DNA of 64,000 nt from Chromobacterium piscinae (GTDB taxonomy: Bacteria > Pseudomonadota > Gammaproteobacteria > Burkholderiales > Chromobacteriaceae), in assembly GCF_021129175.1 (NCBI RefSeq), contig NZ_JAJOHV010000020.1:1-64000 (forward strand), read 5' to 3'. Shown here in pieces: positions 16,287 to 26,505 of the stretch. Position 1 is the stretch's first letter. The number at the start of each line of letters is the position of its first letter. Position numbers and translations under genes: made by a program. Under the pieces are notes generated by a model. It ran no database searches and had not been told where the DNA came from. It saw nothing but the letters and a program-made list of their open reading frames with translations.

Positions 16287-17357
16287 ATGTCCATCCCTTC
16301 TGAAGTCGCGAATGCCTGCCCCGCAGGCGTATCGTTAAATTTGTTCGAGCGCTATCTGACTGCCTGGGTCGCGCTTTGCATCGTTGTCGGAATTGGCTTG
16401 GGTCAAGCCTTCCCTAACCTATTTCATGTGATTGGTGGCCTGGAGATCGCTCAAGTTAATCTGCCAATCGGTTTGCTGATCTGGGTGATGATCATTCCAA
16501 TGCTGCTGAAAATTGATTTCGGCGCGTTGCACCAGGTCAAGGCTCACGTTAAGGGTATTGGTGTCACCTTGTTCATCAACTGGCTGGTCAAGCCGTTCTC
16601 GATGGCGTTTTTGGCCTGGCTGTTTATTCGGGTGTGGTTTGCGCCGCTACTGCCGGCTGAGCAGCTGGATAGCTACATCGCAGGCCTGATTTTGCTGGCA
16701 GCCGCGCCGTGCACTGCCATGGTGTTTGTCTGGAGCCGGCTAACCGGTGGAGATCCATATTTCACGCTATCCCAAGTCGCTCTGAACGACCTGATTATGA
16801 TGTTCGCCTTCGCACCACTGGTCGGTTTGCTGCTGGGCGTGTCCAGCATCGCCGTCCCGTGGGCCACGCTGCTAACCTCGGTGGGGCTGTACATCGTAGT
16901 TCCGGTGTTGATCGCTCAGGCCATCCGCAAGACATTGCTCAGCAAAGGCCAGGCGATATTCGATGCCACCATCCATCGCATTCAGCCTTGGTCGGTTTCC
17001 GCGCTGCTGCTGACCCTGGTTCTACTTTTCGCCTTCCAAGGCAACGCCATCCTGCAACAGCCTTTGGTGATCGCGCTGCTGGCCGTGCCGATCCTAATTC
17101 AGGTGTTCTTCAATTCTGCATTGGCCTACTGGCTTAATCGCCAAGTCGGAGAAATGCATTCAGTGGCCTGCCCATCGGCCCTGATTGGCGCATCTAACTT
17201 CTTCGAGCTGGCTGTGGCGGCCGCGATCAGCCTGTTTGGCTTCCAATCAGGCGCGGCGCTAGCGACGGTGGTTGGCGTACTGATCGAGGTGCCGGTAATG
17301 CTGCTAGTTGTCCGCGTTGTTAATGCGAGCAAAGGCTGGTACGAGAGGAGTGCATAG
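16287..17357 (+). CDS. acr3: Arsenite efflux transporter, ACR3 family
   Basis: 356 residues with about ten membrane helices. LLAAAPCTAMVFVWSRLTGG carries the conserved Cys and helix break of ACR3 proteins (bile acid/sodium symporter superfamily), and GASNFFELAVAAA is the matching second half-site. It exports arsenite across the inner membrane, completing the arsRC-acr3 operon. It is not the 12-helix ArsB type. The gene ends 50 bp before a decayed phage-related remnant. Confidence 0.93.
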   Translation: MSIPSEVANACPAGVSLNLFERYLTAWVALCIVVGIGLGQAFPNLFHVIGGLEIAQVNLPIGLLIWVMIIPMLLKIDFGALHQVKAHVKGIGVTLFINWLVKPFSMAFLAWLFIRVWFAPLLPAEQLDSYIAGLILLAAAPCTAMVFVWSRLTGGDPYFTLSQVALNDLIMMFAFAPLVGLLLGVSSIAVPWATLLTSVGLYIVVPVLIAQAIRKTLLSKGQAIFDATIHRIQPWSVSALLLTLVLLFAFQGNAILQQPLVIALLAVPILIQVFFNSALAYWLNRQVGEMHSVACPSALIGASNFFELAVAAAISLFGFQSGAALATVVGVLIEVPVMLLVVRVVNASKGWYERSA

Positions 17358-17616: not shown

Positions 17617-18534
17617 TTAGAGCGACAGCATCTTCGCCTCTGCCAAGCTGGCCCGCTCATCCAGTCGCTGTTCCAGCAGAGCCCTGAGACCTTCCGGCTC
17701 GATATGCCTGCACCACTCCCTGGCGGTGACGGCGTCGTTGTAGTCGCCCAAGGCCTGCAGTAAGCCGCGCAACTTGCTCAGAAAATGCTTGTGGGCGCCA
17801 TCCAGCTCCAAGTCTGAAAAAAACTCGATGGCGTAGCGCAGATTTTTGCCTTGCTTGCGCAATTCGTGCAACTGTTCGGCAGCGTGCCTTTTTTGTTTCC
17901 ATAGCTTGCGCATGTCCGCCCTCTGGCGTTTCAGCGCGTGGCTGGCGAATCGCGGCAGATTGTCGAGATGCGAGGGTGGCAGGCTGGTTAGACCATCCAG
18001 CAGGCGGGTTGGAAGCGTGCGCCATCGCCGGGAGGACAGCGCTACGCAGCAGGCCGCCCGGCCATCCTGTCGAGCGTCGTTCAGGGCGGCCAGGACGGGT
18101 TTCATTATTTCGCTGGATAGACCGGCCTGGATGGCCGGCAATGTTTCCAATGCCAGCACATCCAGGTCGCGCGCTTTGCCGAATATGCCCGCCAGCCATT
18201 TCAGGTCGTCGGCTATGGTTTTCCACTTTCGGCCGCGAATCAGCGGCGCAAAGGTTTTAAGCGCGGCTCTAAGTCGCCGGATGGCCACCCTGCCCTGATG
18301 GATAGGCTCGGGATCATTCCCTCCGCAAATGTTTGGCGTGTTGGCCATGAGTTGGCGCAAGCACTCCAGAGCGATGCGTTTCAGCGCCGCCGCGCAGCTC
18401 ATTGCAGGGCGCAGGTGTGGAATGCCTGCTTGCGCGCAGCTGCGCATCGAGTAGGAAAATGGGCGCTGCGGTAGCGAGGAGTGTGTTTTTGCCATGACGC
18501 ATGTCTTGACTGGTCGACGATAGCGGGCATTCAT
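17617..18534 (-). CDS. CHAD-domain protein
   Basis: 305 residues. Conserved basic helices HQGRVAIRRLRAALKTF, GKARDLDVL and HELRKQGKNLRYAIEFF identify a CHAD domain, a helical fold that binds polyphosphate. No CYTH domain or polyphosphate kinase gene accompanies it here. Upstream starts are uncertain: ATG 18534 has GGGGAG 11 bp away, while Met14 (18495) has no visible site. The role is presumably polyphosphate binding at granules; this comes from the family, not from context. Confidence 0.85.
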   Translation of the reverse strand: MNARYRRPVKTCVMAKTHSSLPQRPFSYSMRSCAQAGIPHLRPAMSCAAALKRIALECLRQLMANTPNICGGNDPEPIHQGRVAIRRLRAALKTFAPLIRGRKWKTIADDLKWLAGIFGKARDLDVLALETLPAIQAGLSSEIMKPVLAALNDARQDGRAACCVALSSRRWRTLPTRLLDGLTSLPPSHLDNLPRFASHALKRQRADMRKLWKQKRHAAEQLHELRKQGKNLRYAIEFFSDLELDGAHKHFLSKLRGLLQALGDYNDAVTAREWCRHIEPEGLRALLEQRLDERASLAEAKMLSL

Positions 18535-18833
18535 GACGGAGCATGCTCCCCTGGAAGGCCCTTCCTGTCCTCATTTTGATTCATGATTATTTCTCAAGGC
18601 ACTGCGAATCTTCGCCGACGGCTGCGTGGCCATCGCGGCTGTAAGCAATGCCTAAAATCATAGCTGCAAGCCCGCAACTGTACTAATTGACAGTCATGAC
18701 GATAGGCATTGTCCATCAGCGGTTTATTCTGGATTTATCGCCGCGCCTATATGGTTTTTATATGGATAAGCTTGTATTGGAATGTTGCAATACATGAAAA
18801 TGCAAACAAATCTAAATTGCACCTTGAACCTGA
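18535..18833. promoter_or_regulatory. Divergent control region before the lipid operon
   Basis: No gene is seen. Upstream of the KAS III start lies a dyad, TGTATTG and CAATACA separated by 8 bp (18773-18794), in an AT-rich stretch. This is a plausible regulator site for the seven-gene operon. A TTGACA at 18687-18692 lacks a good -10 partner. Confidence 0.45.
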
Positions 18834-19805
18834 ATGAATTTGATTGCAACCGGCAAGGCGCTGCCAAGCCAGCTCGTCACCGCTGATGACCTCGATGTGA
18901 AGCTTGGCTGCCGCCGCGGCCAAAGTTTGAAAAAAAGCGGCGTCCACACCCGGCATTTTGCCGGCGACCATGAATCCCAGAGCCAACTCGGCGCCCGCGC
19001 GCTGAAGGATGCGCTGGACCGCGCGGAGATAAGCGCGTCAGGCATCGATTTGCTGATCGGCGCTTGCGGCATTCCGGAGCAGGCGCTGCCCGGCACCGCC
19101 AGTTTCATCGCCCATGCGGCTGGCTTCCCCGCCGGGCGGCCCGCCTTCGACGTCAACGCCAGCTGCCTCAGCTTTCTGTCCGCGCTGCAGGTAGCGGACA
19201 GCCTGTTGCTCTCCGGCGCGTACCGCCGCATCGCTATCGTCTCGGCCGATTTGGCCTCGCGCGGGCTGGACTGGGCCAACCCGGAAGCCTCGCTGATTTT
19301 CGGCGACGGCGCCGCCGCCGCCATCGTCGAGCGGGGCTCGCCGGGAAGGGGCTTGCGGACTTTCAAGCTGGCCACCTATCCGGAAGGCCGCAATTTCTGC
19401 GAGATTCGCGCCGGCGGCACCCAACGCAACCCGCGCCGCGGGGTCGTCGACGGCGACTTTCTGTTCGACATGAACGGCAAGGCGGTTTTCAAGCTGGCGT
19501 CGCGGCTGATGCCGGATTTTCTGGATGCGCTGATGGATGCCACGCCAGGCGGTCTGGACAGCATAGATTGCGTGGTGCCGCACCAGGCCAGCCATCTGGG
19601 CATGCAGCATATGGCCAAGCGCCTGGGCATCGCCGCCGGTCGCATCGTCGACATCTACGCCTCACACGGCAACCAGGTGGCGGCTTCCCTGCCCACCGCC
19701 CTGCATGAGGCCTTTGTCGATGGCCGCGCCCGCGCCGGCAAGCGTCTGTTGATGGTGGGCACCGCGGCGGGACTGAATCTGGGCGGATTGGTATGGGACC
19801 TGTGA
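18834..19805 (+). CDS. 3-oxoacyl-ACP synthase III-like condensing enzyme
   Basis: 323 residues. The thiolase-fold triad is visible: Cys111 in DVNASCLSF, His250 in VVPHQAS and Asn280 in ASHGNQVA. FGDGAAAAIVE is also typical. It should carry out a decarboxylative or non-decarboxylative Claisen condensation of acyl thioesters. It opens a run of seven overlapping genes, so it probably starts a special lipid pathway rather than serving as housekeeping FabH, which normally sits with fab genes. OleA-like head-to-head condensation is an alternative. The start has no strong ribosome-binding site. Confidence 0.85.
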   Translation: MNLIATGKALPSQLVTADDLDVKLGCRRGQSLKKSGVHTRHFAGDHESQSQLGARALKDALDRAEISASGIDLLIGACGIPEQALPGTASFIAHAAGFPAGRPAFDVNASCLSFLSALQVADSLLLSGAYRRIAIVSADLASRGLDWANPEASLIFGDGAAAAIVERGSPGRGLRTFKLATYPEGRNFCEIRAGGTQRNPRRGVVDGDFLFDMNGKAVFKLASRLMPDFLDALMDATPGGLDSIDCVVPHQASHLGMQHMAKRLGIAAGRIVDIYASHGNQVAASLPTALHEAFVDGRARAGKRLLMVGTAAGLNLGGLVWDL

Positions 19806-20812
19806 CGCGGGTACTGGTGACTGGCGCCACAGGCGGACTGGGACGCAATGCCGTCGCTTATCTGTTGGGCAAGGGCTGCGCGGTGCGCGCCACCGGCCGC
19901 AATCGGCAGGCGGGCGTCGAGCTGGCTGGCCTGGGCGCTGAATTCGTCGCGCTGGACCTGGCCGCTGCCGATGAAGGCCAGTTGGCCGGCCTGCTGGAGG
20001 GCGTGGACGCGGTATGGCACTGCGCCGCCCTTTCCGCGCCTTGGGGCCGGGGGGACGATTTCGTCGCCGCCAATGTTCATGCGACCGACAAGCTGCTGAA
20101 GGCCTCGGGGCAATCGCGCGCCAACCGCTTCATCCACATTTCCACGCCGGCGCTGTACTTCGATTTCCAACACCGCTACCAGGTGCCGGAGTCGTATCGT
20201 CCGCGGCGCTACGTCAATGCTTATGCCCGCACCAAGGCGCAGGCTGAAGAAAAAGTGCTTGAGGCTGCGCGCGCCTATCCCGCGCTGCGGACCACGATCT
20301 TGCGGCCGCGCGCCATCTTCGGCGAGCACGACCAGGTGCTGATGCCCAGGCTGGCGCGCATGCTGAGCCAACGCGGCGGACGTCTGCCGCTGCCGCGCGG
20401 CGGCGCGGTGACGCTGGATCTGACCTATGTCGGCAATGTGGTCCATGCGATGTGGCTGGCCACGACGCATCCCAGCCTTGCCAGCGGCCAAGCGTTCAAC
20501 ATCACCAATCAGCAGCCGGCCGTGCTGCGCGATGTGCTGACGCGGGTGTTCGCCCAGGAGTTGGGCCGGCCCTTACGCATCGTCAGCCTGCCCTACCCCT
20601 TGCTGAGCGCGGCCAGCCGCCTGGCGCAGCTGTGGGCCGCGCTCACGGGCAAGGAGCCGGCATTGACGCCTTACAGCCTGGGCGCGATCCATTTCGACAT
20701 GACGCTGGACAATACCCGGGCGCGCGATGCGCTGGGTTATCTGCCGCCGTACAGCTTGGATGAAGGCCTGGCGCGCACCGCGCGCTGGCTGAGGGAGCAT
20801 GGACATGGCTAG
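19793..20812 (+). CDS. NAD(P)-dependent epimerase/3-beta-HSD-like reductase
   Basis: 339 residues, extended SDR. The nucleotide-binding motif VTGATGGLGRNA lies near the N-terminus and the active-site YARTK at about 145. It resembles 3-beta-hydroxysteroid dehydrogenase/OleD-type reductases that reduce beta-keto acids, fitting an upstream KAS III. It overlaps that gene by 13 bp from ATG 19793; a GTG at 19802, overlapping the stop, is an equally possible start. Reduction of the condensation product is inferred. Confidence 0.85.
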   Translation: MGPVTRVLVTGATGGLGRNAVAYLLGKGCAVRATGRNRQAGVELAGLGAEFVALDLAAADEGQLAGLLEGVDAVWHCAALSAPWGRGDDFVAANVHATDKLLKASGQSRANRFIHISTPALYFDFQHRYQVPESYRPRRYVNAYARTKAQAEEKVLEAARAYPALRTTILRPRAIFGEHDQVLMPRLARMLSQRGGRLPLPRGGAVTLDLTYVGNVVHAMWLATTHPSLASGQAFNITNQQPAVLRDVLTRVFAQELGRPLRIVSLPYPLLSAASRLAQLWAALTGKEPALTPYSLGAIHFDMTLDNTRARDALGYLPPYSLDEGLARTARWLREHGHG

Positions 20813-21617
20813 TGTCACCGCGTTCAGCGTCGGACATTGCACTCATCCGGCCTGCATGGCGCTGAAAGGCGCGGGGCTGGCCAGCCGTTGCTTTCCTTCG
20901 CGCGCCTATCTGATTGAAACCCGGGATCGCCTATTGCTGTGGGATACCGGCTATTCCGAGCATTTTTTCGACGCCAGCCGCCGCGGCGCCTATCGGCTGT
21001 ACCCGATGGTGACGCCGGTGCATTTCGACGGCGCCCGATCGCTGCGTCAGCAACTGCGCGGGCGCGGCATAAGCCCAAACGATATACACACATTATTGCT
21101 GTCGCACTTCCACGCTGACCATATCGCCGGCCTGCGGGACTTTCCCCGGGCCTGCATCCTTGCCTCCGAGCAAGGCTGGCGCGGGGTGCGCGGCTTGAGC
21201 GGGCTGGCCGCGGTGCGGCAAGCCTTTCTGCCCGGTCTGCTGCCGGCGGATATGGAAGACCGTTTGTCTTTTGTCGAGGCCTTGCCCCTGCAGGCCTTGC
21301 CTGCCGAATTGGCGCCGTTCAGCCATGGCCGCGACGTCAGCGGCAGTGGCGAAGTGTTCGTGGTGGATCTGCCGGGACATGCGGTGGGGCACTTGGGCGC
21401 TTTCGTGCTGGGGGATTCAGGCTGGACGCTGCTGGCGTCGGACGCGGCCTGGGCGGAAGAAGGCTACCGGGAGTTGCGGGGTCCATCCGAGCTGTCTTTC
21501 CTGGTACAGCACAACCGCCGCGCCTATTACGGCACGCTGGCCAGGGTGCACGCGCTGCACCGGGGCGGCCGCGTGGAGATTCTGCTGACGCACCAGGAGG
21601 AGGACACCGCATGCTGA
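20805..21617 (+). CDS. Metallo-beta-lactamase-fold hydrolase
   Basis: 270 residues from ATG 20805, with GGGAG 7 bp upstream; the ATG 6 bp earlier is too close to that site. HFHADH supplies the first metal ligands, a later DLPGHAVGH segment a further His, and ASDAAW a bridging Asp. The family includes lactonases, thioesterases and glyoxalase II. In this operon it may release or open an acyl thioester or lactone. It overlaps the reductase gene by a few bases. Confidence 0.85.
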   Translation: MASVTAFSVGHCTHPACMALKGAGLASRCFPSRAYLIETRDRLLLWDTGYSEHFFDASRRGAYRLYPMVTPVHFDGARSLRQQLRGRGISPNDIHTLLLSHFHADHIAGLRDFPRACILASEQGWRGVRGLSGLAAVRQAFLPGLLPADMEDRLSFVEALPLQALPAELAPFSHGRDVSGSGEVFVVDLPGHAVGHLGAFVLGDSGWTLLASDAAWAEEGYRELRGPSELSFLVQHNRRAYYGTLARVHALHRGGRVEILLTHQEEDTAC

Positions 21618-22900
21618 GACTGATCCGAATCCTGGCCGCCTACTGGCGGACGCGGCGGCTGGGTTTTCGCGACCGAGCGGCGCTGGAGCGCCATCAGGCC
21701 CGGCAAATGGGGCGCTTTCTGGCCAGGCTGCGCCGGCGCAGCCCCTATTTCGCCAAGCTGGGCACCCTGCCTTTCGCGCAGTGGCCGCAGATGGACAAGG
21801 CCTCGATGCTCAAGCATTTCGACGATATGAATACCGCGGGGTTGAAGCTGGACGACGTGATGGATGCCGCGTTGCGCGCCGAGCGCAGCCGAGACTTCTC
21901 TCCCACGTTGAACGGCCATACGGTTGGGCTGTCGTCCGGCACCTCCGGCCAACGCGGCGCGTTCGTCGTCAGCAAGGGCGAGCAGGCGCGATGGGCCGGC
22001 ATCATGCTGGCCAAGGCTTTGCCCGATGGCCTGCTGGCCGGCGAGAAAGTGGCGCTGTTCCTGCGCGCCAACAGCAATCTCTACGGCGCGGTGCGCAGCC
22101 GCTGGCTGACTTTCCGCTTTTTCGACCTGTTCCAGCCTTTGGACAGGCATTTGCAGTCGCTTGACGCTTACGCGCCCACCATTTTGCTGGCGCCGGCCCA
22201 GGTGCTGCGCGCGCTGGCGCTGGCGCAGTTGGAGGGCCGCTTGCGGCTGTCGCCGAAGCGGGCGTATTCCATCGCCGAGGTGCTGGAGCCGCAGGATCGC
22301 GCCGTGATCGAGCAGGCTTTCGGCTGCGTGCACGAAATCTACCAGGCGACCGAGGGCTTCCTGGCCAGCAGCTGCGAATACGGCACGCTGCATCTGAACG
22401 AGGAATACATCCATGTCGAACCGGAATGGTTGGATGAGGAACGGCGCCGTTTCGCGCCGGTGATCACCGACTTCAGCCGCCACACCCAGCCCATCGTCCG
22501 CTACCGGCTGAACGACGTGCTGCAGGCGCGGGCCGAGCCCTGTCCTTGCGGGCGCGCGGCGATGGCGCTGGACGCGGTGGAGGGCCGCTGCGACGACATG
22601 CTGCGGCTGCCGGGCCGCGATGGCGGCGAGCTGACGGTGTTCGCCGACGTGATGGGCCGCGCGCTGGCGACCGCTTTGCCGCTGGAGGCCGATTACCGGC
22701 TGCGCCAGACCGGCCCAGCCGAATTGGCGCTGGATGTCGAGGTGCCGGCGGCGGCCTTACCGGCCATTCGCCATCGCCTGGAGCGGACGCTGACGGGCCT
22801 GGGCGTTGACGCCGGGGCGCTGCGATGGCGGTTGTCGAATCGGGTGCCGGCGATGGATGCCACGCGCAAGCGCAGGCGCATCGTCAGGGAACTGGCATGA
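21611..22900 (+). CDS. F390-synthetase-related adenylate-forming enzyme
   Basis: 429 residues with a textbook GGAGGAGG site 7 bp before ATG 21611. It belongs to the adenylate-forming superfamily near coenzyme F390 synthetase and PaaK: GLSSGTSGQRGAFVVS is the phosphate-binding loop and IYQATEGFLAS the adenine-binding segment. It should activate a carboxylic acid as acyl-AMP. The acceptor is unknown; no carrier protein gene lies beside it. Overlaps the metallo-hydrolase gene by 7 bp. Confidence 0.85.
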   Translation: MLRLIRILAAYWRTRRLGFRDRAALERHQARQMGRFLARLRRRSPYFAKLGTLPFAQWPQMDKASMLKHFDDMNTAGLKLDDVMDAALRAERSRDFSPTLNGHTVGLSSGTSGQRGAFVVSKGEQARWAGIMLAKALPDGLLAGEKVALFLRANSNLYGAVRSRWLTFRFFDLFQPLDRHLQSLDAYAPTILLAPAQVLRALALAQLEGRLRLSPKRAYSIAEVLEPQDRAVIEQAFGCVHEIYQATEGFLASSCEYGTLHLNEEYIHVEPEWLDEERRRFAPVITDFSRHTQPIVRYRLNDVLQARAEPCPCGRAAMALDAVEGRCDDMLRLPGRDGGELTVFADVMGRALATALPLEADYRLRQTGPAELALDVEVPAAALPAIRHRLERTLTGLGVDAGALRWRLSNRVPAMDATRKRRRIVRELA

Positions 22901-23520
22901 GACGTGCGCTGGACTGGCTGCCTCCCAGGCTGCGCCATATGCTGTTGGGCTGGGCATCGGTAGGCTGCGCTTACTCGCTGGGCAGCCTGTGGCCCCAGCG
23001 CGCGACTATTCTGCCCGAGCTGGCCGTGGACCGCTGGATTCCTTTCGATCCGGCGGCGATCTGGTTATACACGTCGTTTTTCCTGATCGTGCCGGCGGCT
23101 TATCTGCTTGCCCGCCCGGAGCGGTTGGCCTGGCTGCAGCGCGCGATGCAGTGGTGCGCGCTGGCCGCCGGCGCGGCTTTCCTGCTGTGCCCCACTACCC
23201 TGGCGTATCCGCCCATCGCCGGCGATGGTTTGCATGCTGAAGCGCTGCGTTTCTTTCTACGCTTCGACACCCCGCACAACTGCCTGCCCTCCTTGCACGG
23301 CGCGCTGACCGCGCTCTCCGCCTGGGCCTTGTGGGAAGGCGGCCGCCGCTGGCGCTCATGGCTGGCGCTGGCATGGGCGCTGGCCATTCTGTTCGCCGTG
23401 ATCCAGCTGCGCCGCCATCTATTCATCGATCTTTCCGCCGGCGTGGCGCTGGGGCTGCTTTGCGGCCTGCTGGCGGCGCGGCCGGCTACCGCCCTTTCCC
23501 TTTCCTATCGACGCACATGA
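22897..23520 (+). CDS. PAP2-family membrane phosphatase
   Basis: 207 residues, starting in an ATGA overlap with the adenylating enzyme. It has about five or six membrane helices. NCLPSLHGAL is the PAP2 C2 motif (PSxH), and IQLRRHLFIDLSAG carries the C3 His and Asp. Family members dephosphorylate lipid phosphates (phosphatidate, isoprenyl diphosphate) at the membrane. The C1 motif KxxxxxxRP is not obvious, so some enzymes of this group may act as acyl- or phosphotransferases instead. Confidence 0.85.
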   Translation: MRRALDWLPPRLRHMLLGWASVGCAYSLGSLWPQRATILPELAVDRWIPFDPAAIWLYTSFFLIVPAAYLLARPERLAWLQRAMQWCALAAGAAFLLCPTTLAYPPIAGDGLHAEALRFFLRFDTPHNCLPSLHGALTALSAWALWEGGRRWRSWLALAWALAILFAVIQLRRHLFIDLSAGVALGLLCGLLAARPATALSLSYRRT

Positions 23521-24614
23521 ACGTATTCGCCCTCACCTTCTCCATCATGCTGGCCGTAGTGCTGCTGGAGTTGCTCGCCCTGCGCCATTGGCGCCGCGAA
23601 GCCATTCCCTGGCGCGAAATCATCTTCAACCTCAATTCAGGCCACATCGTGATGTGGGTGTTTCGCGGCGTGGAGGTGGCGGGTTTCGGCCTGCTGCTGC
23701 AGTACGCCAACCTGCACCTGGTGGATCGGCTGCCAGTGTTCTGGCAATGGGTCTTCGCCTTCGTCGCCTGGGATCTGAGCTTTTACTGCATGCACCGCGC
23801 CCACCACACCTGGCGCATCTTCTGGGCGGTGCACGTGGTGCATCATCAGGGCGAGCATTTCAGCCTGTCGCTGGGCATACGCAACTCCTGGTATTCGTCG
23901 CTGACTTCGTTTCTTTTCGTCGCGCCGCTGGCGGTGCTGGGGTTGCCATTGGAGATATTCGTCGCGGCGTCGTCTTTCCACTACGCGGTACAGCTGTACA
24001 ACCACAATGCCTTCGTCGGCAAGAGCGGCTGGCTGGACCGGGTACTGGTGACGCCGTCCAATCATCGCGTCCACCACGCCACCCATCCGGTGTACCTGAA
24101 CAAAAACTTCGGCGGCACCTTCCTGATCTGGGACAAGCTATTCGGCAGCTATCAGCCCGAGCGCGACGACATCCCGCTGCATTACGGCGTGCACGGCGTC
24201 TCGCCCGGCTACAACCCGTTCTGGGCCAGCAACCAGGGGCTGCAAGCCTGGTTCCGGCGCCGTTTCGCTCCGTCCGGGCGGCGCGCGATGCGGATGCCAG
24301 CCGCCTACATCGCCACCGGCGGGATTTTGCTGTTCGGCATGGTGATCTATTACGTCGAGCGGGTGGCCGGCTGGGACGCCATCGGTCGATGGAGCGTGTT
24401 CGCCTGCCTGGTGGCCGGCACCATCGCCATCGGCGGCATGTCGGATGAGCGGCGTTGGGGCTGGCGGGGTTGGCTGGCGCTGACTCTGGCGATGCCGGCG
24501 CTGTGCGCCGGCGTGTTCGGCATGCGCGACGGCTGGGCATTGGCCTTGCTGGCTTTGTTGCTTGTCCATGGCCTGGCCGGGCTGCGCCTGCGGGAGGCCG
24601 CATGGGCAAACTGA
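23517..24614 (+). CDS. Sterol-desaturase/fatty acid hydroxylase family membrane enzyme
   Basis: 365 residues; ATG 23517 overlaps the previous stop (ATGA). The diiron His motifs are all seen: HRAHH, HVVHHQGEH and NHRVHHATH. Several membrane helices surround them and a further hydrophobic domain of about 120 residues follows the catalytic part. Relatives hydroxylate or desaturate sterols, fatty acids or alkylglycerols. Without sterol genes nearby, an acyl or alkyl chain is the likely substrate. Confidence 0.88.
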   Translation: MNVFALTFSIMLAVVLLELLALRHWRREAIPWREIIFNLNSGHIVMWVFRGVEVAGFGLLLQYANLHLVDRLPVFWQWVFAFVAWDLSFYCMHRAHHTWRIFWAVHVVHHQGEHFSLSLGIRNSWYSSLTSFLFVAPLAVLGLPLEIFVAASSFHYAVQLYNHNAFVGKSGWLDRVLVTPSNHRVHHATHPVYLNKNFGGTFLIWDKLFGSYQPERDDIPLHYGVHGVSPGYNPFWASNQGLQAWFRRRFAPSGRRAMRMPAAYIATGGILLFGMVIYYVERVAGWDAIGRWSVFACLVAGTIAIGGMSDERRWGWRGWLALTLAMPALCAGVFGMRDGWALALLALLLVHGLAGLRLREAAWAN

Positions 24615-25675
24615 GATTCCAGTCGTCGGCGAAGCTGCCGTTCCGCATCGACCTGCAACGTACCGCCCAAGCCTACCTGGCCGAGCGCGGCGAACACCGC
24701 TTCGCCGACTGGCGCGTGGGGCTGAAAGGCGCGGCGCTGGCGGCGCTCAGCCTGGCTTGTTATGTGCTGGCATTGCGCGCGACGACGATGTGGTCGTTCG
24801 CGCCGGCCTACATCGCGGCCATCGTCATGGCGATGCTGCTGGCGATGAACACCTTGCACGACGCCGCCCACGGCGCCCTGTTTCGCAACGCAAGGCTCAA
24901 CCGGTGGCTGGCCCGCGCCGCCAGTTTGCCGATGGGCATAGATGCCGACATCTGGACCCGGCGGCATGTGCACCTGCACCATACCTACCCCAATGTCGAC
25001 GGCTACGATCTGGACATCGAGCCCAACCCTTTCCTGCGGCAAACGCCGTTCCAGGACTGGTCGCCGCAATTCCGCTACCAGCACCGCTACTGGCCGCTGG
25101 TGGCGGCACTGTCCCTGCCCTACCTGTGCTGGTACGGCGATTGGCTGGACCTGCTGGGCAAGAGCAAGCTGCGGCAATACGACAGCCAACCCATTCCCGC
25201 AGGCGGATTCCTGCTGGGCAAGCTGGGACACCTGATCCTGCTGCTGGCGTTGCCCTGGTATTGCCTGCCGGCCGGCGCGATCGGCTGGGGCGGCCTGCTG
25301 CTTTGCTATCTGGCCGGCTTGATGACGGCGTCCTGTTTTCTGGTGGCGATGATCTTGGGCACCCATTGGGCCGAGGTGGAGTTCTTCCGGCCTGAAGGCG
25401 CGGAAATGCCTCATACCTGGCATGAGCACCAGTTCCTGACCTGCTGCGACTGGCAGCCCAGGCCGCGGGCGCTGGGGCATTTATTGGGCGGCTTGCATCT
25501 GCACCTGACCCACCATTTGTTTCCGGCCTATAGCCACCGCCACTATCCGGCGTTGGCGCGCATCGTCGAGCAGCTGGCGCAGCGGCATGGCCTGCCCTAT
25601 CGTTGCATCGGCTATCAGGGGCTCTGGCGCGCGCAGCAGAACTTCCTGCGGGGGATGGGCCGTCGGCCCGAATAA
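24602..25675 (+). CDS. Membrane fatty acid desaturase
   Basis: 357 residues from ATG 24602, overlapping the hydroxylase gene by 13 bp. Three His boxes are present: HDAAHG, HVHLHHTYPN and HLHLTHHLFP. This is the membrane diiron desaturase fold, which inserts a double bond in acyl chains. It is the last gene of the operon, and a strong hairpin follows. Together with the previous gene it provides two oxygen-dependent modifications for the product of the cluster. Confidence 0.9.
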   Translation: MGKLRFQSSAKLPFRIDLQRTAQAYLAERGEHRFADWRVGLKGAALAALSLACYVLALRATTMWSFAPAYIAAIVMAMLLAMNTLHDAAHGALFRNARLNRWLARAASLPMGIDADIWTRRHVHLHHTYPNVDGYDLDIEPNPFLRQTPFQDWSPQFRYQHRYWPLVAALSLPYLCWYGDWLDLLGKSKLRQYDSQPIPAGGFLLGKLGHLILLLALPWYCLPAGAIGWGGLLLCYLAGLMTASCFLVAMILGTHWAEVEFFRPEGAEMPHTWHEHQFLTCCDWQPRPRALGHLLGGLHLHLTHHLFPAYSHRHYPALARIVEQLAQRHGLPYRCIGYQGLWRAQQNFLRGMGRRPE

Positions 25676-25696
25676 GAAATGTCGGTTTGAATCAAA

Positions 25697-25727
25697 ACGC
25701 CCGCGCAGCTGCGCGGGCGTTTCGCTT
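25697..25727. terminator. Strong bidirectional terminator
   Basis: A perfect 24-bp palindrome (ACGCCCGCGCAG and its complement) at 25697-25720, with AAAA before and TTTCGCTTTC after. It ends the lipid operon on the plus strand and the GNAT-like gene on the minus strand. Confidence 0.9.
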
Positions 25728-25728
25728 T

Positions 25729-26505
25729 CTAGCCGCGATGGCCATGCGGATGCGGCGCGAAGAGCCGGCTCAGGCGGTTCAGCAGCATGCGCCCGGTGGC
25801 GTGCGCCATGCAGCCCAGCGTGACCGGCACCAGCGTCAGCAAGCCATGGCCCTTGGTGTAGCCGGGGTTGCGGTGGATGTAGAACTGGGCCGCCGAATTG
25901 GGGCTGGCTTGCCACTGCCTGCGGTCGCCCTCGTTATCGCGCGTTTGCCAGCCCACGTGGACCACGCCCGGCTTGTCCGGATCCACCGGCTTGAGGCCGA
26001 ACAACCGCGCCAGCTGGCCGATCACCCCGCCGTAATCCAGCTCTGAGGATTGCTGGGCGCTGGGCCATACCCGGGTGGCGTACTTGTCCAGCAGCATATA
26101 GCTGGATGGATGCACCAAAGCCCCCAGGTAGTAAACCCGGCGGCCAGGCCGGGTCAGGCGGTAAGCCAGCACCTGGCGGCACACGAACGGCGCGTTGCGG
26201 TTTTTGCCGCGGTAGGCCCGCATCAACCCGGCTTCCATCCGGATTACGGTGGATTCGCGTCCTTCCAGGTTTTGTTCGAAGAAATGGATTGCGCAATAAC
26301 CAACGGATTGGCCTTGCGCATTCTTATGAATCAGAATGCGCGTTTCTTTGGCTTTGGAATATACGACATAGCTGGCGAAATCCTCCTTGCTGACGCCGTC
26401 GAATATATCGCAATGCACCAGGTATAATTCATCCACCAGTTTTTCCCTGTCGGGCGCATCCATCAAGGCTGGCGCAACGACGACAGATTTTCCCATTTTA
26501 GACAT
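25729..26505 (-). CDS. GNAT-like acyltransferase, unassigned
   Basis: 258 residues. The central part reads like a GNAT core: ETRILIHKNAQGQSVGYCAI as strands 2-4 and MEAGLMRAYRGKNRN as the acyl-CoA-binding loop. The C-terminal 50 residues contain a hydrophobic patch (LLTLVPVTLGCMAHATG) and a basic, His-rich end, so it may touch the membrane. Convergent to the lipid operon and separated from it by a shared terminator. It could modify the lipid product, but that is only position. Confidence 0.45.
   Translation of the reverse strand: MSKMGKSVVVAPALMDAPDREKLVDELYLVHCDIFDGVSKEDFASYVVYSKAKETRILIHKNAQGQSVGYCAIHFFEQNLEGRESTVIRMEAGLMRAYRGKNRNAPFVCRQVLAYRLTRPGRRVYYLGALVHPSSYMLLDKYATRVWPSAQQSSELDYGGVIGQLARLFGLKPVDPDKPGVVHVGWQTRDNEGDRRQWQASPNSAAQFYIHRNPGYTKGHGLLTLVPVTLGCMAHATGRMLLNRLSRLFAPHPHGHRG

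Follow-up and report, generated by a model that had tools for sequence, protein, structure and literature searches.

What does a bacterium build with a ketosynthase, a reductase, a metallo-hydrolase, an adenylating enzyme, and three membrane proteins, all encoded end to end? The question arises from seven plus-strand genes that fill positions 18834 to 25675 of a 64,000-nucleotide stretch of the Chromobacterium piscinae genome (RefSeq assembly GCF_021129175.1, contig NZ_JAJOHV010000020.1, positions 1 to 64,000), here called the window. A first-pass annotation, made from the sequence alone, read these genes as one overlapping operon of a pathway with an uncharacterised product. Both points stand: the open reading frames overlap consecutively by 13, 14 (or 8), 7, 4, 4, and 13 bp, and none of the papers reached by full-text searches on this gene block gives it a product (subscription papers lay mostly outside the searches' coverage). 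The seven genes are, however, not one fixed pathway: the operon is a four-gene core, kept from locus to locus, followed by a variable tail. Our favoured answer, held tentatively and a little short of probable, is a lipid-biosynthesis operon whose core makes a beta-oxygenated acyl unit in activated form, which the tail finishes as a membrane lipid.

The division into core and tail rests on comparison. A species-level scan (one genome per species) returned at least 553 relatives of gene 4, and the best 80 named loci were analysed; these are near relatives, unevenly sampled (12 are Janthinobacterium), with genus labels, here and in the gene 4 tree below, assigned from record titles. The core encodes a ketoacyl-acyl carrier protein synthase (KAS), a short-chain dehydrogenase/reductase (SDR), a metallo-beta-lactamase-fold hydrolase (MBL), and an F390-synthetase-related enzyme, and it stands in that order in 77 of these loci. 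The complete seven-gene order, which the first-pass annotation took as the unit, occurs in 54 loci from 19 genera of beta- and gammaproteobacteria, which rejects the idea of a single-genus oddity; in 17 loci none of genes 5 to 7 lies directly behind gene 4. With synteny this wide, and with no assigned product in the papers searched, the refuting conditions named at first pass leave that reading standing. Ratios of nonsynonymous to synonymous substitution (dN/dS) are 0.07 to 0.21 for all seven genes, compared between the window and a congener and between Escherichia coli ABU 83972 and Escherichia sp. E1V33 (0.08 to 0.17 in the latter pair), and all seven are under purifying selection. Because the same order recurs so widely under such constraint, the arrangement is not a matter of chance. 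The family alignments used below hold 61 to 81 sequences including the window, after rows with an internal stop were dropped; two rows (L093 and G629) are identical upstream of the operon and are almost surely one genome, not independent.

Over wider samples the distribution is patchy. In the genus, four of 19 genomes pass the cut-off of the gene 4 family model, TIGR02304, the window's among them; of 250 sampled from the order only the window's does, and of 369 sampled from the class the window's and one other do. The order of that other class member has 31 of 143 genomes over the cut-off, and the whole four-gene core is present in each of the seven that were fetched, with interrupted genes in one. 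The core is also present in the alphaproteobacteria Paracoccus, Ketogulonicigenium, and Rhizobium (each with a TetR-family regulator gene immediately before it) and, split by an ATP-grasp gene, in the Bacillota Paenibacillus and Pontibacillus. Plasmid records with a gene 4 match number 25. Among the 11 examined, the core is contiguous in six; an ATP-grasp gene separates genes 1 and 2 in two Bacillota; the core is rearranged in Fusobacterium; relatives of the core genes lie scattered on one Pseudomonas megaplasmid (pBASL58); and another has gene 4 without core partners within 8 kb. The surroundings on pBASL58 are hypothetical genes, as they are on pMPPla107, where a gene 4 relative sits beside an ATP-grasp relative. 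Two bee-gut symbionts are among the carriers: Snodgrassella has the core, and Gilliamella the block.

Several different tails follow the one core. At seven loci from six genera, a second OleD-like SDR and a GT21 glycosyltransferase stand behind it (domains were scanned in Mangrovibacter), and four of the six genera add a 196-residue orphan and a GT28-like glycosyltransferase. Thus the earlier remark that no glycosyltransferase is present is true of the window, but some relatives add two to the same core. The best curated match of the GT21 protein is the hopanoid enzyme HpnI. The orphan, of 196 to 215 residues (L161:13403-13990; L195:5211-5855) and with no Pfam match over cut-off, accompanies GT21 and the core in Enterobacterales and again in Fusobacterium, the orphans matching each other at E 4e-14. 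Noviherbaspirillum instead has a large protein resembling a nonribosomal peptide synthetase (L100:11305-14310), in which a 400-residue amino terminus precedes adenylation and carrier domains (A-PCP). That terminus has no Pfam match, and a search for homology between it and GNAT found none; by eye, its HALMDAGG stretch presumably resembles a condensation-domain motif. A metagenome-assembled genome encodes a similar protein, and Pelomonas just its amino-terminal part. ATP-grasp and GNAT genes are found within the core or next to it in Uliginosibacterium, Paraburkholderia, Rhizobium, and Paenibacillus, as well as at one locus of the other TIGR02304-positive order; a Rieske oxygenase gene occurs at the Rhizobium locus, at that last locus, and at one further core locus. 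Finally, a PF10118 hydrolase follows the core at four loci of Paraburkholderia, Comamonas, and a Burkholderia (domain-scanned in one). The GT21 protein with its orphan, the ATP-grasp and GNAT pair, and the A-PCP protein all appear to be of lipid- or acyl-transfer type. This comparison suggests one acyl-building module that feeds several head-group chemistries.

Leclercia, Citrobacter, and Klebsiella have both PAP2 and GT21 tails. On a quick gene 4 tree of 68 rows (at most three per genus label), tail types need 16 changes, compared with a minimum of five and 26.9 for shuffled labels; in this count some PAP2-tail rows have gene 5 alone or stop where a contig ends, and any row with both tails is labelled GT21. 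The figures suggest that a tail is as a rule inherited together with its core and is now and then exchanged. In this tree the betaproteobacterium Snodgrassella falls with Serratia, and Pseudomonas lies beside S. quinivorans; both groupings point to horizontal transfer, as judged from the tree.

Curated models agree with the gene families named in the first-pass annotation, with a change of weight for genes 4 and 5, and the catalytic residues are intact. Gene 1 (18834 to 19805, ACP_syn_III domains) encodes a KAS III-like ketosynthase in which Cys111, His250, and Asn280 are kept in all 77 sequences. It is not the housekeeping FabH: it scores 202.3 bits against TIGR00747, below the cut-off of 292.1; the genome has a separate FabH at 425.6 bits; and in a KAS tree FabH proteins, the host's own among them, form a separate branch with support of 100/100. 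Gene 2 (19793 to 20812, Epimerase and 3Beta_HSD domains) encodes an extended SDR of the OleD/3-beta-HSD type, with T10-G11, G15-L16-G17, and Y144xxxK148 conserved at 97% or more of 80 sequences. Its best NCBIfam match is OleD, at 155.9 bits against a cut-off of 580, so by this score it is not OleD itself. Gene 3 (20799 to 21617, Lactamase_B; an alternative ATG at 20805 would reduce the overlap with gene 2 from 14 to 8 bp) encodes a metallo-hydrolase, as had been said, and the assignment can be refined to the fold of acyl homoserine lactone (AHL) lactonases and 4-pyridoxolactonase, whose metal ligands it shares (dizinc, as in AHL lactonases; at 97% or more in the family alignment).

Gene 4 (21611 to 22900), a PaaK-like adenylating enzyme, clearly belongs to TIGR02304, 'F390 synthetase-related', scoring 515.8 bits against a cut-off of 251.9; Pfam gives no match even at E 5, PF00501 included. 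Residues S108, G110, T111, Y244-G249, and the carboxyl-terminal Lys420, at 97% or more of 81 sequences, are what we take to be the adenylating motifs. Curated resources assign no reaction to this family, and the conserved neighbours and varying tails are newly described here. The literature offers a few leads. The part of PMC2649909 available describes a fatty acid cluster of D. psychrophila with a ligase named as an F390 synthetase, for which a role in glycerol attachment is proposed. In a virulence screen of Pseudomonas syringae pv. actinidiae, the mutant table lists a 'Coenzyme F390 synthetase' hit by Tn5 (PMC9823363), a lead that was not tied to TIGR02304. Excerpts of PMC5467263 and PMC5501837 merely mention the name.

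These families fit the order of condensation, reduction, hydrolysis, and activation proposed at first pass for genes 1 to 4, and from them we infer the substrates, the order of steps, and the product. The KAS would condense an acyl thioester, drawn from the host's pool, with another thioester, acyl or malonyl; the OleD-like SDR would reduce the beta-keto product to a beta-hydroxy acyl chain; the MBL would release the free acid by hydrolysing the thioester (or a lactone); and the F390/PaaK-like enzyme would adenylate this acid and pass it to an acceptor. In the window's tail, the PAP2_3 membrane protein would then move or remove a phospho head group, and the di-iron hydroxylase and the desaturase would finish the chain. 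The product may thus be a hydroxylated, unsaturated membrane lipid, sphingolipid-like in its finishing enzymes.

The closest solved relatives of gene 1 suggest a different end for the core. By sequence these are MxnB (178 bits) and CorB (173 bits), which share its NASCLSF active-site stretch. All three have a hydrophobic residue where OleA and PpyS have a catalytic glutamate: Leu85 in all 77 KAS sequences aligns with Val94 of MxnB and CorB, which the available part of PMC4578411 places at PpyS Glu105. According to the part of PMC5724707 at hand, MxnB in vitro couples two beta-keto acyl chains into an alpha-pyrone. The window's operon differs in lacking a polyketide synthase and in having a reductase gene behind the KAS. 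In the KAS tree, MxnB and CorB lie with divergent KAS of the clusters, at an open fork (seven of 26 inner branches are well supported, and one very long-branch row is a paralogue from the window's genome). The operon's product might be a diffusible signal or an antibiotic of the pyrone or butenolide type, with the KAS joining two beta-keto chains and the MBL, which has the AHL lactonase fold, tuning or clearing a lactone. We consider this unlikely. The commonest tail consists of membrane enzymes (PAP2, hydroxylase, desaturase), and around the core, its own genes and the tails aside, no gene cluster is shared by more than eight of 36 genus labels, although only some clusters are annotated and a dedicated transporter or receptor may be among the rest. 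AHL lactonases have a catalytic tyrosine three residues after the metal-bridging aspartate; gene 3 has Trp218 in all 73 sequences, at the position of a Tyr in the aligned AHL lactonase AiiB. Its context, too, sets gene 3 apart from the lactonases, being biosynthetic.

The reading of the operon as a route to a membrane lipid draws in part on the tail, whose first gene in the window is gene 5 (22897 to 23520). First named a PAP2 phosphatase, it does belong to the PAP2 superfamily: it passes the PAP2_3 model (PF14378) at 34.6 bits against a gathering cut-off of 27, and falls below the cut-off for classical PAP2 (25.7 versus 27.2 bits). N128, P131-H134, R173-H174, and D178 (PSLH; RH-x3-D) are conserved at 97% or more of 68 sequences. 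Classical PAP2 lipid phosphatases carry the C1 motif KX6RP, which is found in none of the 68. When the gene 5 structural model was compared with the PDB by Foldseek, the one match at E of 0.001 or better was inositol phosphorylceramide (IPC) synthase with ceramide, followed by SMSr-ceramide and Aur1-Kei1; on a second aligner (VIA, covering the families in VIA-align lists) LpxE, a phosphatase, ties with these ceramide head-group transferases. Because the motif is absent throughout and the first Foldseek matches are transferases, the phosphatase label appears doubtful, and phosphotransferase or phosphatase is the assignment we prefer. Were gene 5 a plain lipid phosphatase after all, the operon might remodel phospholipid chains, with the core serving fatty acid salvage or activation. 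The LpxE tie is in line with this, as is the sole NCBIfam match of gene 6, the ornithine-lipid hydroxylase OlsE (at 70.2 bits, far under its cut-off of 475). Such remodelling is likewise unlikely: besides the missing motif, it has no call for a dedicated ketosynthase, and it leaves aside the loci without any of genes 5 to 7 directly behind gene 4. The remaining tail enzymes are a membrane di-iron fatty acid hydroxylase of the sterol desaturase family (gene 6, 23517 to 24614, FA_hydroxylase) and a membrane fatty acid desaturase (gene 7, 24602 to 25675, FA_desaturase); the histidine boxes of the former and the three of the latter are each conserved at 97% or more of 61 sequences.

If the lipid reading is right, its boldest form is a mimic of sphingolipids made without serine palmitoyltransferase: a two-chain or chain-extended beta-hydroxy acyl backbone finished by enzymes of the ceramide head-group type. 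This is a rather slim possibility, raised because two tails hold ceramide head-group families (PAP2_3, with its IPC-synthase-like fold, and GT21, a family linked to ceramide). The head would depend on the tail: phospho with PAP2_3, sugar with GT21, amino acid with ATP-grasp and GNAT or the peptide-synthetase-like protein. The operon differs from known ceramide systems in that curated models find no serine palmitoyltransferase among its seven genes (a search that did not extend to other parts of the genome); on the second aligner, moreover, gene 5 fits LpxE equally well. If true, such a mimic would give bacteria, some E. coli among them, a second and modular way of making sphingolipid-like membrane lipids.

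Least probable is a beta-lactone or olefin pathway assembled from partly unrelated parts (KAS for OleA, SDR for OleD, F390-like enzyme for OleC, and MBL for OleB), in which the roles line up, OleD is the best curated match of the SDR, and OleC and F390-like enzymes share one adenylating superfamily, but against which stand the leucine at the OleA glutamate, a score of just 54.9 bits between gene 1 and OleA (entry 3s23), and the head-group enzymes of several tails, for which a hydrocarbon has no need. OleABCD and the window thus have in common a ketosynthase, an OleD-like reductase, and an adenylating enzyme within one operon. Membership in the Ole pathway itself is rejected: as first noted, the OleB/OleC pair is missing, with none of the seven genes matching either in curated models, and the ketosynthase moreover lacks the OleA glutamate.

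The block also reaches E. coli. It is present in 672 of 5426 complete genomes in RefSeq, a biased sample, and in 671 of these 80% or more of it lies together; it is about 92% identical to that of a related Escherichia. Nissle 1917, ATCC 25922, and E2348/69 are among the carriers in the matches listed. About one in eight complete E. coli RefSeq genomes therefore carry an apparently intact, putative lipid operon with a product still to be named. In ABU 83972 the block lies 111 bp behind narI, ahead of the RtT small RNA and two tRNA-Tyr genes, and nar genes adjoin it upstream, about 0.1 to 1.1 kb away, in 11 of the best 80 loci (Escherichia, Serratia, Citrobacter, and Leclercia). A coupling to nitrate respiration would be odd, because the hydroxylase and desaturase families of genes 6 and 7 require oxygen. 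A record labelled as an E. coli plasmid (NZ_CP141085.1, 79272 to 98528), one of the 11 plasmid records examined, has the block within narG-hns, as on the chromosome; it is possibly a mislabelled chromosomal piece or an assembly matter.

The single terminator noted at first pass has a good candidate. Positions 25696 to 25721 form a perfect 26-bp palindrome followed by T-rich DNA (opposite-strand self-match 25695 to 25722), likely the operon terminator and, as read from the sequence, shared (bidirectional) with the convergent gene at 25729 to 26505, whose 258-residue product has no Pfam match; the palindrome is not among the matches of a consensus terminator scan of the window. Upstream, 140 bp before the operon, a dyad at 18678 to 18693 (CTGTACTAATTGACAG) is the sole CTGT-N8-ACAG site in the window, a low-confidence candidate operator. 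It is kept in the window and two congeners, with much-diverged surroundings in one of them, and is absent ahead of gene 1 from all 76 named loci that were examined, among them C. subtsugae. It could be a LuxR-type or a LexA-like site, the latter having presumably this CTGT-N8-ACAG pattern. A window-wide scan for CviR/LuxR-type boxes with up to two mismatches gave 77 matches against 57.5 expected (two of 100 shuffles were as high); the matches spread over the whole window, and the excess was not counted as evidence. Farther upstream lie a CHAD-domain protein gene (17617 to 18534) and what by eye is an arsenite-transporter-like gene (16287 to 17357), a second copy of which, 84% identical, is present elsewhere in the genome (C124:11056-12059).

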